64,000 bases of DNA. Source: Parvibaculum sp. (GTDB lineage Bacteria; Pseudomonadota; Alphaproteobacteria; Parvibaculales; Parvibaculaceae). A program made the translations under genes and the position numbers. Of this stretch, positions 462 to 49,486 are shown piece by piece. The DNA is taken from NCBI GenBank assembly GCA_002694985.1, contig NZNS01000005.1, positions 186,001-250,000 of the forward strand, in the 5' to 3' direction. How positions within the stretch are numbered: the stretch's first letter is position 1; the number at the start of each line of letters is the position of its first letter. The notes beneath the pieces are model-generated. The model searched no databases, was not told the DNA's origin, and saw only the letters and a list, made by a program, of their open reading frames with translations.

Positions 462-485
462 GGGCGGTTTTCAAACATTCTGTCA

Positions 486-506
486 CCCCCGGGCTCGCCC
501 CGGGGG
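486..506. repeat. Perfect GC-rich hairpin of a dispersed type
   Basis: Arms CCCCCGGG (486-493) and CCCGGGGG (499-506) surround a 5-nt loop. It lies 25 bases after the metY stop codon. No T-run follows, so it is more likely a dispersed intergenic repeat than a terminator. A related CCCCGGGGG string follows the large inverted repeat that ends at 48704. Confidence 0.6.
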
Positions 507-584
507 TCCAGAAGTCGCCATCGGGCGGCGTCCCTCTTCGCACGACACTTACGTGCGCCCCCCCGTCAATCCCTCACCCCAATC

Positions 585-614
585 CGTCATTGCGAGCAAA
601 GCGAAGCAATCCAG
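585..614 (+). repeat. Half-copy of the TCATTGCGAG...GAAGCAATCCAG dispersed repeat
   Basis: CGTCATTGCGAG (585-596) is followed by GAAGCAATCCAG (603-614). The same words recur at 48211 and 48601, where they form inverted repeats. Here the closing arm (CTCGCAATGACG) is missing, so this copy looks truncated. It is non-coding and lies between convergent metY and ctaA. Confidence 0.7.
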
Positions 615-45937: not shown

Positions 45938-48184
45938 TCACCCTGCCCCGAACCCGCCACCAAAGCTGTGTCCTACGGGGAAACCCTTGGGTGGCAACCG
46001 CCCCGCCTGCGCGCGCTGGCCGACCCATTCCTTAAGCCCTTCGAATGTCCGCGCCCGGCCCGAGCGGTCATAGGCGATGAGCCCCTGTTTCAGCGTGAAG
46101 GTCTTGATGTCGCCAAGCCCGCCATCCTTGTAGCGTTGCAGGCGCACACCCTTGCCGCGCGTCATCTCGTTCACTTCCTTGAGCGGGAAGATCAGCAGCT
46201 TCCGGTTCTCGCCGATCACGGCCACATGGTCGCCCTGCACCACTTCGCAGGCCACAGCTTCGTCCGTACCCGTCACATTCAGCACCTGTTTGCCCGCGCG
46301 CCGCATCGCCACGACATCGTCCTCCGGCACGATGAAGCCATTGCCCTCATGCGACGCAACGATGAGCTTCCGCCCCGGCTGATGCACGAAGAGCTCCACG
46401 ATCTCGCGGCTCTCGTCGAGATCGATCATCAGGCGCACCGGCTCGCCATGTCCGCGCCCGCCCGGCAGCTTGCTGACATCGAGCGTGTAGAAGCGTCCAT
46501 CCGTCGCAAACAGCAGCACCTTGTCCGTCGTCTCCGCATGAAGCATGAAGCGCAGGCCGTCGCCTTCCTTGAACTTGATCTCCGTGCCAGGAGCCACATG
46601 CCCCTTCATGGTGCGGATCCAGCCCTTCTTCGAGCAGACGACCGTCACCGGCTCCTTCTCGATCATCGCCTCCACGGGCACATATTCGATCGTCGGCGCA
46701 TCCGAGAAATGTGTCCGCCGCGCGCCGAGCTTCGTCTTCGGACCGAAGGTCGCCTTGACCTGCTTGATCTCCTCGGACACGCGCTCCCAGAGCTTGTTGT
46801 CCGAGCGCACAAGCGCCTTCAGCTCCTTCTGTTCCGCGGTGAGCTTCTTGTGTTCGCCGCGGATTTCCATTTCTTCAAGCTTGCGCAAGCTCCGCAAACG
46901 CATGTTGAGAATGGCTTCGGCCTGATTGTCCGTCAGCTTGAAGCGCTTCATCAGCACGGGCTTCGGCTCGTCTTCCTCACGAATGATACGGATCACTTCG
47001 TCGAGATTGAGATAGGCCTTCAAATAGCCTTCCAGAACTTCCAGCCGCTTCTCGATCTTGTCGAGGCGGAAGCGCGAGCGCCGCACCAGCACTTCCTTGC
47101 GATGTTCGAGCCAGGAGCGGAGCACCTCGCGCAGCGACATCACGCCCGGCACCTGTCCGGCGGAAAGCACATTGAGGTTCAGCGGAAAACGGCTTTCAAG
47201 TTCCGTTGCCCGGAACATGGATTCCATCAGATGCGCCGGGTCGACCGTCTTCGCCTTGGGCACCAGCACGAGGCGGATCTCCTCCGCACTCTCGTCGCGC
47301 ACATCGTCAAGCAGCGGCAGCTTTCGCGCCTGCAGGAGTTCTGCAATCTTCTCCACCAGCTTGGACTTCTGCACCTGGTAGGGAATTTCCGTGATGACGA
47401 TCTGCCAGAGCCCGCGCGGCAGTTCTTCCTTTTCCCATTTTGCGCGCACGCGGAAGCCGCCGCGTCCCGTCTCATAGGCGTCGATAATCGAGGCCCGCGG
47501 CTCAACGATAATGCCGCCCGTCGGGAAGTCCGGTCCCTGCACGAAGCTGACGAGCTTCTCCGTCCGCGCATTCGGATATTTGATGAGATGCAGCGCCGCG
47601 TCGCAAAGCTCGGCCGCATTATGCGGCGGAATGCTCGTCGCCATGCCGACCGCGATGCCCGATGCGCCATTCGCAAGCAACTGCGGAAAGGCCCCCGGCA
47701 ACACGATGGGCTCCCGGTCCTCGCCGTCATAGGTCTCGCGGAAATCGACCGTATCTTCGTCGAGCCCGTCCAGCAGTAGCGCCGCAACCGCCGTCAGCCG
47801 CGCTTCCGTGTAGCGCATGGCCGCCGCATTATCGCCGTCCACATTGCCGAAATTGCCCTGCCCGTCGACCAGCGGATAGCGCACGGAAAAATCCTGCGCG
47901 AGGCGCACCAGCGCGTCATAGACCGACTGGTCGCCATGCGGGTGATAGCGGCCGATCACGTCGCCGACCACGCGCGCGGATTTCTTGAAGCCCTGTCCCG
48001 GTTCGAGCTTCAACTGCCGCATCGCGAACAGCACGCGCCGATGCACCGGCTTCAGCCCGTCGCGCACGTCTGGCAGCGCGCGGTGCATGATGGTCGAGAG
48101 CGCATAGGCGAGATATCGCTCTTCCAGCGCCTCGCGCAGATTGATCTCGTGTTCGGGCTCGGGCGGCGTAACGGCCTTGGTCAT
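45938..48184 (-). CDS. parC: DNA topoisomerase IV subunit A
   Basis: Decatenates replicated chromosomes together with ParE. The 748-residue length is typical of alphaproteobacterial Par[35 protein letters not shown] and the active-site tyrosine in [11 protein letters not shown] are visible. The C-terminal beta-pinwheel is short ([12 protein letters not shown] blade motif). The GyrA box of gyrase (QRRGGKG) is absent, which favours ParC. It starts 27 bases from the repeat at 48211. Confidence 0.97.
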
Positions 48185-48210
48185 CTTTCTCTACTCTCAA
48201 TCCTGTCCAT

Positions 48211-48296
48211 CGTCATTGCGAGGAGCGCAGCGACGAAGCAATCCAGGGCCACAACCTGCGGACTCGCTCCGGTCATTCGACTTCTCTGCAATGACA
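48211..48296. repeat. Inverted repeat, left boundary of the GIY-YIG cassette
   Basis: CGTCATTGCGAGG (48211-48223), then GAAGCAATCCAGGG, closing with GCAATGAC (48288-48295). Outer arms GTCATTGC/GCAATGAC are perfect. The inner part is less regular than in the copy at 48601. The GIY-YIG stop codon is 4 bases further on. Confidence 0.85.
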
Positions 48297-48299
48297 CTC

Positions 48300-48587
48300 T
48301 CAAATCAGGTCATCGTGCAAATCCCGCCACTGGGGATTCATCGCTTCTATCAATTCCAGCTTCCGCCGCCGCGATCCCGCCTTGATCTGTTTCTCGCGAG
48401 CGATCGCATATTCCATTTCGTCGTGCATCTCGTACCAGACCAGCATCTTGCAGCCATGCCGCTTCGAAAACCCCGGCAACGCGCCTTCACGGTGCTCATA
48501 TATCCGCCGCTCCAGATGTGACGTCACGCCGGTATAGATTGTCCCGTTGCGCCCGCTGGCGACGATGTAGACCGCTGGCCTTTTCAT
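48300..48587 (-). CDS. GIY-YIG nuclease family protein
   Basis: 95 residues, single-domain (YhbQ/UPF0213-like). The catalytic scaffold is visible: VYIVASGRNGTIYTGVTSHLERRIYEHREG, with the Tyr pair, the conserved Arg (residue ~28) and a late Glu region (EMEYAIAREKQIK). From ATG 48587 a GAGGGGTGGG run lies directly upstream; the open frame reaches 48599. The ORF fills the space between inverted repeats ending at 48296 and starting at 48601. It is probably a nuclease; the substrate is unknown. Confidence 0.9.
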   Translation of the reverse strand: MKRPAVYIVASGRNGTIYTGVTSHLERRIYEHREGALPGFSKRHGCKMLVWYEMHDEMEYAIAREKQIKAGSRRRKLELIEAMNPQWRDLHDDLI

Positions 48588-48600
48588 CCCACCCCTCAAC

Positions 48601-48704
48601 CGTCATTGCGAGGCCCAAAGGGCTGACGCAATCCAGGGGCCGCAAGCGCCGGAGCCAACAGCCCCTGGATTGCTTCGTCGGCCTGCGGCCTCCTCGCAAT
48701 GACG
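48601..48704. repeat. 104-base inverted repeat, right boundary of the GIY-YIG cassette
   Basis: Outer arms CGTCATTGCGAGG (48601-48613) and CCTCGCAATGACG (48692-48704) are perfect over 13 bases. Inner arms CAATCCAGGGGC (48629-48640) and GCCCCTGGATTG (48661-48672) are perfect over 12 bases. In the GIY-YIG transcript it would fold into a long hairpin just before the ribosome site. Words match the copies at 585 and 48211. Confidence 0.9.
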
Positions 48705-48754: not shown

Positions 48755-49486
48755 TCACTTCGCTCTCGCCGCCATCTTCTCCATCAGCCTGATCCGCGCA
48801 TCCGGCAGGTGCCGGTCATGGGCCGCAAAGAGATGCCGCTCCAGGAAATGCCCCGTAAGCCGCAGGCCCTCCGCCACATCCTCATTCGTTGCCATGCCCG
48901 CCTGCGCGCCGACGAGAAAGGGCGGCAGCCGGAACAGCCGGTCCTTGTAGGGTTCGCCCGCCTCGCGGCACACCGCGCCTCCGCTTTTCGGCGAGACATA
49001 GGCCAGGTCTTCGCGCACCCCCGTCGCCGCGCATTTCGTGAGATCGAGCCCGAAGCCGAGTTCCTGTAGCAGCCCCAGCTCCCAGCGCACGAAGACCGCC
49101 GGCCACACATCCTCGTCCTGCATGGTTTCGAGCAGCACCTCATAGCCGTCGAAAAGAGCCGGATGCCCTTCCCGCTCCGGCACGATGCCGCAAACGGCGC
49201 TCGCCGCGCTCAGGCCGAGCAGCGCCAGCGGATCATCCATCAGCAGGCCGGCAAGCGGGCGCACGAGTTCCACCTGATAAGTGCCGAGATGTTCGGAAAG
49301 CCGCGCGCGCCAATGCGCCGCAACCTTGTTGCCCGGCTGGAGCACGCTGCGCATCCGCCGCCCCGCGCCGCCATGCACAAGGCCAAGATGCCGCCCCTGC
49401 TCGCGCGTGAATAGTTCGAGGATCGCGCCCGTCTCGCCATGCGCGCGTGCCGACAGCACAATCCCTTCGTCACGCCAATCCATCAA
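48755..49486 (-). CDS. recO: DNA repair protein RecO
   Basis: Recombination mediator that works with RecR to load RecA on gaps. The 243-residue protein has the N-terminal OB-fold starting MDWRDEGIVLSARAHGE and the LVHGGAGRRMRSVLQPGNKV segment. The C-terminal helical domain has WELGLLQELGFGLDLTKCAATG. The second Met (49483) may be the true start. Its neighbours (era, rnc) on the same strand lie beyond the ars insertion. Confidence 0.94.
   Translation of the reverse strand: MMDWRDEGIVLSARAHGETGAILELFTREQGRHLGLVHGGAGRRMRSVLQPGNKVAAHWRARLSEHLGTYQVELVRPLAGLLMDDPLALLGLSAASAVCGIVPEREGHPALFDGYEVLLETMQDEDVWPAVFVRWELGLLQELGFGLDLTKCAATGVREDLAYVSPKSGGAVCREAGEPYKDRLFRLPPFLVGAQAGMATNEDVAEGLRLTGHFLERHLFAAHDRHLPDARIRLMEKMAARAK

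Follow-up and report, generated by a model that had tools for sequence, protein, structure and literature searches.

A 95-amino-acid GIY-YIG nuclease gene between recO and parC of a Parvibaculum sp. was originally predicted to be framed by inverted repeats and to form a self-contained unit with them. We asked whether gene and repeats indeed belong together, in this genome and elsewhere, and what the enzyme might do to the repeats. The window is the whole stretch of DNA analysed (64,000 nucleotides), and its repeats were assigned, with those of the genus, to seven types (T1–T7) by our own rules. The features are:

45938–48184, minus strand: parC, flanking gene (family model 898.8 bits, cut-off 628.9)
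48212–48245, plus strand: T1 REP (CGTC-type, ATTGCGAG...GCAATCCA) on the gene's downstream side
48270–48296, minus strand: degenerate inverted partner of the left REP, seen by eye, below the detector
48300–48587, minus strand: GIY-YIG nuclease gene, 95 aa, ATG start (ORF list, Pfam, alignment, predicted fold)
48602–48635, plus strand: T1 REP adjoining the start codon, inner half of a head-to-head dimer
48666–48703, minus strand: T1 REP, outer half of the start-side dimer
48755–49486, minus strand: recO, flanking gene (family model 125.9 bits, cut-off 48.7)
482–510, plus strand: T3 REP, of the type flanking another GIY-YIG gene of the same genome (L001)
586–613, plus strand: complete T1 REP monomer (GTC...CCA), no gene

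The recO–parC locus and its repeats

The GIY-YIG gene is intergenic, with recO on one side and parC on the other, and each neighbour is a single open frame. Domain match, conserved residues and fold all place its product in the GIY-YIG superfamily. In a profile search it scored 53.2 bits against Pfam PF01541 (cut-off 22.6; score taken on the longer TTG-started frame 48300–48599), and Y18, G20, R28, H32, E65 and N84, which we take to be the catalytic residues of the fold, were invariant in 20 aligned sequences. The AlphaFold2 model was confident (pLDDT 94.5) and closest to UPF0213, Slx1 and UvrC GIY-YIG domains, the small UPF0213 proteins (PDB 1zg2, 1ywl) being the closest solved folds. By a simple count method, dN/dS was 0.07–0.22 in 25 of 28 T1 gene pairs, the other three being saturated; judged by these ratios, the gene is under strong purifying selection.

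Gene and framing repeats are present as predicted, and the gap from start codon to right repeat is 13 bp; the gap from stop codon to left repeat is 3 bp, not 4. The right inverted repeat (48601–48704) consists of two REPs head to head. That left and right repeats are related was borne out, as two stretches of the outer REP match parts of 48210–48248 as perfect inverted copies, over 16/16 bases (spaced 464 bases apart) and 18/18 bases (414 bases). The copy described as truncated at 585–614 turned out to be a complete monomer. In DNA folding, the right dimer reached −36.9 kcal/mol (z −6.8) and the degenerate left pair a z of −1.6, and folding was weak in two of three single T1 copies of the window (z −1.35, −3.41, −0.53).

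With up to one mismatch, the word GTCATTGCGAG occurs eight times in the window (four exact), against 2.45 expected, and 0 of 100 shuffles contained as many. A general REP detector marked nine places in the window, five of them convincing by eye, and none in the reversed window. Strict T1 copies number 14 in the window genome and up to 86 in the genus. The window genome holds a second GIY-YIG gene between repeats of a differing type, GTCACCCCCGGG...CCCGGGGGTCCA, as well as a pair of GIY-YIG genes, the second partial, followed by REPs of a third type. Among 35 T2 copies, one variable stem position was G-C in 28, A-T in 7 and mixed in none, with a search pattern that allowed mixing, so base pairing has been kept. 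The listed head-to-head T1 dimers of the genus often join a short-loop and a long-loop copy (heterodimers).

These repeats resemble the CGTC-tagged REPs described by Di Nocera, De Gregorio and Rocco in 2013 (PMC3733652; here and below, statements on this paper refer to its available parts). Both have a GTC tag, a stem starting with A (usually AT) and a CCA tail, and head-to-head dimers, heterodimers and an alpha-proteobacterial bias are also common to both. Specifically, T1 shows the (C/T)GTC tag, stem, CCA tail, head-to-head dimers and genomic repetition of that superfamily. It differs in its hairpin: CGTC REPs have an 8–9 bp stem and a 4–5 nt loop, whereas in each of the four T1 copies of the window an outer stem of 5 bp encloses a long loop of 12–22 nt, which often pairs with itself. 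Other types, with GC-rich stems, look closer to the 8–9 bp stem by eye, and odd loops are described in CGTC REPs of Bradyrhizobium (PMC3733652). The same source has REPs mostly intergenic and often downstream of genes, and counts dRS3 of Neisseria as a member of the superfamily.

Association of gene and repeats within the genus

PF01541 matches, UvrC among them, were present in all 27 same-genus genomes sampled, and 100 stretches taken from these gave 105 GIY-YIG frames. No frame scored between 99.6 and 119.8 bits, and a cut placed in this gap, at 110 bits, separated 60 close kin of the window gene, found in 20 of the 27 genomes, from 45 other small frames, which are more distant, include fragments and are here taken to be UPF0213-like. 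UvrC-looking matches, judged by a long open frame, were left out (among them one 373-aa frame near a contig start; the 616-aa frame G009:C132 was kept), as were G009:C124 (22.3 bits) and the contig-end fragment G005:C34:1-72; the L182 stretch gave no match. Control ORFs were chosen mechanically (at least 120 aa, non-overlapping).

A REP lay within 100 bp on both sides of 53 of the 60 kin, as against 2 of the 45 other GIY-YIG frames, of which one, scoring 99.6 bits, has a broken end and the other is a fragment. Of the control ORFs, 341 lay over 700 bp away from every GIY-YIG gene, and among these none had REPs on both sides and 17 had one on either side; with direct neighbours of GIY-YIG genes included, 10 of 519 control ORFs had two-sided REPs. 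The detector found 236 REPs in real DNA versus 7 in reversed DNA, and a stricter definition left two-sided REPs in 33/60 kin, 1/43 other frames and 4/519 control ORFs. As the 60 kin are related and occupy 30 sites, they are not 60 independent cases. Genes of this type do stand closer to the repeats than random genes, and chance placement beside REPs was rejected on the contrast of 53/60 with 0/341. Among the remaining kin, L087, L092, L096, L109 and L142 had a REP on one side only (L092 with a decayed copy opposite, by eye), L127 had none by the detector and a variant pair by eye, and L181 had none nearby.

In the commonest form of the unit, GTC points outward on each side, so that the gene stands where the spacer of a REP dimer would be. 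Upstream there was a single forward REP in 34 of 54 kin and downstream a single inverted REP in 40 of 57; exactly one REP per side was found in 25 of 60, of which 22 had the inverted, outward-GTC form. Spacing was narrow, with a median of 19 bp from REP to ATG (14–23 bp in 42/54) and of 8 bp from stop to REP, and the 53 genes with both REPs formed units of 362–473 bp. Given this fairly steady spacing between REP and ATG, the hairpin may also control translation, as originally suggested. We regard the locus as probably a compact REPtron-like unit of about 400 bp, in which a GIY-YIG gene lies between inverted CGTC-type REPs. The self-contained unit of the original prediction is supported by the two-sided REPs of the kin, by the 30 sites and by loci outside the genus, described below.

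Some loci show further features. At L181 / L006 (G000 C7:588653-589078), GIY-YIG genes stand in tandem, the second partial, with no upstream REP and a REP pair after the second, which looks like a decaying unit. At L093 (G000 C7:515967-526101), a T3 and a T5 unit lie ∼1.6 kb apart, and the gene between them looks FAD-linked-oxidase-like, judged by its start peptide. At L096, L097 and L109, the GIY-YIG C terminus seems to run into the flanking REP, with a GPGT or DPGT tail.

recO and parC lay on one stretch in 24 genus genomes. The gene stood between them in three (the window genome, G011 and G020) and was absent in 21, where the gap measured 39 to 294 bp; by eye, some of these gaps are empty, one holds a T1 dimer and several hold T2 or ATCCCGG-type dimers. 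In G024 the gene adjoins a partial recO at a contig end, and in G014 and G008 the unit lies, by coordinates, beyond parC. In other species (L028, L029, L042), the recO–parC gap is filled by a further repeated element (CCCCGCCCCGAA ... GGGGAGGGTGGGAAG).

The count of 30 sites is approximate, since sites were joined when one flank matched. Some sites carry differing types between species, and one holds T2, T3, T5 and T7 units in different species, a pattern that fits repeated arrival at favoured places. The T1 clade occupies only two site clusters in the genus, in the recO–parC neighbourhood where positions were checked, a distribution easier to reconcile with inheritance plus local moves than with frequent jumps. 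In the recO–parC comparison of genus genomes, divergence between species was too great for a target-site duplication or a clean end of the insertion to be read, and we therefore infer movement.

Pairing of enzyme clade and repeat type

On a tree of the 60 kin, the seven repeat types require 12 changes, compared with a shuffled mean of 40.2 (0/200 shuffles as low). The eight T1 genes, including L127, whose T1 label was given by hand from the flank text, fall together on one side of a branch with support 100/98. On a wide tree of 140 proteins from the matches listed, T1 versus other types requires 4 changes (39 when shuffled), and taxonomic class requires 15 versus 20 when shuffled (three classes, 61 rows). 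As repeat type is more tightly clustered than class, the enzyme is matched better by repeat type than by organism. By and large, a given enzyme clade is accompanied by a repeat type of its own.

This pairing has a counterpart in the protein. The window protein has G71 and R75, whereas W71 and W75 are found in most relatives whose repeats are of other types. Among the matches listed, 46 of 47 rows with T1 (ATTGCGAG) repeats carry glycine at residue 71; in the 89 rows with other types, this residue is tryptophan in 87 (the exceptions being one Y and one truncated row) and residue 75 is tryptophan in 85. In the wide set of listed matches, 9 of 39 T1 labels came from looser core words; without them, G71 was found in 29/30. 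Because independent switches are few (four on the tree), the rule is a strong correlation rather than proof. Repeat choice may be set by the short loop of residues 70–75, a suggestion that we make tentatively and as part of the broadest reading given below.

For copy numbers, T1, T2 and T3 were counted in the 27 genus genomes and flanking copies were subtracted. Genomes with the respective enzyme clade carried more copies than those without it for T1 (median 29.5 vs 17, p 0.02), T2 (35 vs 8.5, p 0.0009) and T3 (7 vs 1, p 0.008), and none of six cross-comparisons between a clade and another type's copies fell below 0.05 (p 0.054 to 0.77). Outside the genus, we chose 50 of at least 80 loci by label, 25 of G71 type and 25 others. 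Among these listed matches, the T1 median was 57 in G71-type genomes and 0 in the others; more than four T1 copies were present in 23/25 of the former, any copy in 6/25 of the latter, and the contrast had a p of 3e-6 with four copies subtracted. The ATTCC type was reversed among the same matches (7/25 versus 20/25, p 0.003).

Repeats are also abundant in some genomes that have no close kin of the gene (G042, with 44 T1 copies; G018, with 29 T1 and 26 T2 copies) or no T1 enzyme (G017, 44 T1 copies), and 106 T1 copies in G072, a genome reached via a W71-type locus, are unexplained. These genomes speak against a strict one-to-one link between enzyme and repeat. The original prediction was to be given up if repeats abounded in genomes lacking the gene and the parC–recO site was never empty; the former holds for G042 and G018, but 21 of 24 genomes have the site without the gene, so the two do not hold jointly.

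Distribution, known relatives and competing explanations

A scan of named genomes gave at least 80 loci from several phyla, with alpha-, beta-, gamma- and delta-proteobacteria, Planctomycetes, Chlorobi, Elusimicrobia and others among the matches listed. In these listed matches, a CGTC REP lay within 150 bp on at least one side at 68 of 80 loci and on both sides at 45, and 307 REPs were detected in real versus 4 in reversed DNA; of the 12 loci without a detected REP, 9 have T1-like words in their flanks. The enzyme–repeat unit is real and widespread. At L246, a truncated T1-like protein of Sphingomonas is accompanied by listed repeats of another type and is possibly a fragment beside an unrelated dimer.

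Carriers and other roles were also considered. Matches occurred in 33 of 72,556 plasmid records; as 32 of these are predicted non-mobilizable and several are chromosome-sized, there is no clear conjugative carrier. Two Neisseria gonorrhoeae records labelled plasmids (NZ_CP119140.1 and NZ_CP119142.1) measure 2.17 Mb and are chromosome-like in size. A phage origin was rejected, with one weak match (39.5% identity) in 50,697 phage records, as was a role in anti-phage defence, for which PADLOC gave no match. A homing intron was rejected because no intron was seen and the neighbours are open; the gene is intergenic and repeat-flanked, and lies in no intron, intein or cut gene as a homing endonuclease gene would.

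The closest described relatives appear to be the Ssn proteins, a family of site-specific single-stranded GIY-YIG nucleases reported in Nature Communications in 2025. The Neisseria Ssn reportedly binds a repeat of hundreds of copies, cuts it as single-stranded DNA and affects transformation, and Ssn homologues are said to have corresponding sequences. Like the window protein, Ssn is a small single-domain GIY-YIG protein. The N. gonorrhoeae homologue of the window protein, which we take to be encoded by ssn, shares 58% identity with it over 93 residues, and its gene lies between ATTCCCGC repeats; by eye, ATTCCCGC...GCGGGAAT copies stand ∼110 bp upstream and a few bp downstream, with CTA, CCA and CCG tails. 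It carries KWNRAW where the window protein has AGSRRR, and so has W/W where the window enzyme has G71 and R75 with the repeat ATTGCGAG instead. Compared at sequence level, this loop and repeat pair appears to agree with the residue 71/75 rule, as predicted. The homologue's place beside dRS3-type repeats would tie the window enzyme to these nucleases, so that it probably belongs to a class of enzymes described before. The present analysis adds CGTC REPs as probable targets, the compact unit, a controlled comparison within a genus, a survey of sites with and without the gene, and the rule for residues 71 and 75.

In RAYT/REPIN systems, too, repeats are clade-specific. There and in REPtrons, an enzyme gene is likewise flanked by its REPs, with gene-less dimers elsewhere (PMC3733652). 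The window unit is nonetheless not a REPtron of the RAYT kind: RAYT is an HUH tyrosine transposase associated with a GTAG tag, whereas the window unit combines an unrelated GIY-YIG fold with a CGTC tag. In the available parts of PMC3733652, CGTC REPs 'apparently lack a dedicated transposase', no RAYT was found with CGTC units at its sides, and CGTC REPtrons are proposed to have possibly disappeared early; no dedicated enzyme is given there, and the main text, as available, does not contain the word GIY. Titles and abstract openings, far from a full search, revealed no work linking GIY-YIG with REP or Ssn, and titles and opening abstract lines no repeats with the word TCATTGCGAG. A RAYT and a GIY-YIG protein stand unlinked in one Moraxella-clade gene list in the available part of PMC9465073, and the one mention of GIY-YIG in that of PMC12707154 is as a fused domain.

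Taken together, the pairing of clade and repeat in many bacteria points to the GIY-YIG enzyme as the missing partner of CGTC REPs. We think it likely that the enzyme recognises its cognate REP and plausible that it cleaves it as a single strand; whether unit and dimers spread themselves we consider about even. In such a mechanism, the enzyme would recognise the cognate REP when single-stranded, folded or not, as would arise in replication, repair, transformation or conjugation, and would nick it near the GTC/CCA foot. This would resemble the action of RAYT on GTAG REPs and that reported for the Neisseria Ssn on its repeat. As a consequence, the unit and REP dimers lacking the gene might spread, or recombination of repeat-bearing DNA might be controlled. 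The broadest reading, which we rate as slightly less likely than not, is that GIY-YIG nucleases of this family are the missing CGTC REP enzymes across bacteria and form a second REPtron class, built on a nuclease unrelated to RAYT, whose ∼400-bp units and gene-less dimers would spread via single-stranded intermediates.

The same enzyme could instead serve the host, as an Ssn-like nuclease acting in transformation or repair, where it would trim or block single-stranded DNA that carries the repeats, with the REPs scattered by other means and the flanking copies only regulating or insulating the gene. We take this combination seriously while finding it somewhat doubtful. The reported repeat binding and transformation effect of the Neisseria Ssn, the 58% identical homologue between such repeats, the purifying selection and the confinement of the T1 unit to two site clusters in the genus would all suit it, whereas the differing enzyme types at one site, the 60 genes at 30 sites and the gene-less dimers with the geometry of the unit can be read as mobility. 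A third explanation makes the gene cargo of repeats moved by a RAYT or another IS200-type transposase. RAYTs are indeed the proposed movers of GTAG REPs, and other transposases may act on CGTC REPs (PMC3733652, available parts), but Y1_Tnp (PF01797) was found in 1 of the 27 genomes and not in the window genome, while T1 is present in 23 and T2 in 25 of them, and that source has no RAYT flanked by CGTC units. Because Y1_Tnp is so scarce, a RAYT is unlikely as a general partner, and we consider the cargo explanation very unlikely. The originally proposed REP-like system with an enzyme class other than RAYT is supported by this scarcity and by the cognate types.

It is less credible still that CGTC REPs merely gather in short intergenic regions where a small gene happens to sit. 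REPs are mostly intergenic (PMC3733652, available parts), and 17 of 341 controls had a REP within 100 bp on either side; two-sided REPs, however, flanked 53/60 kin versus 0/341 controls and 2/45 other GIY-YIG frames, and neither the clade-matched types, the narrow spacing nor the recurrence in several phyla suits such gathering.

Gene units of REPtron shape now accompany CGTC REPs, for which no enzyme was given in 2013, in 20 of the 27 genus genomes and in named genomes of several phyla. If GIY-YIG proteins are indeed the missing CGTC REP enzymes, two unrelated enzyme classes would have reached the same REPtron design, and the family would offer a natural set of small repeat-specific nucleases with readable specificities.
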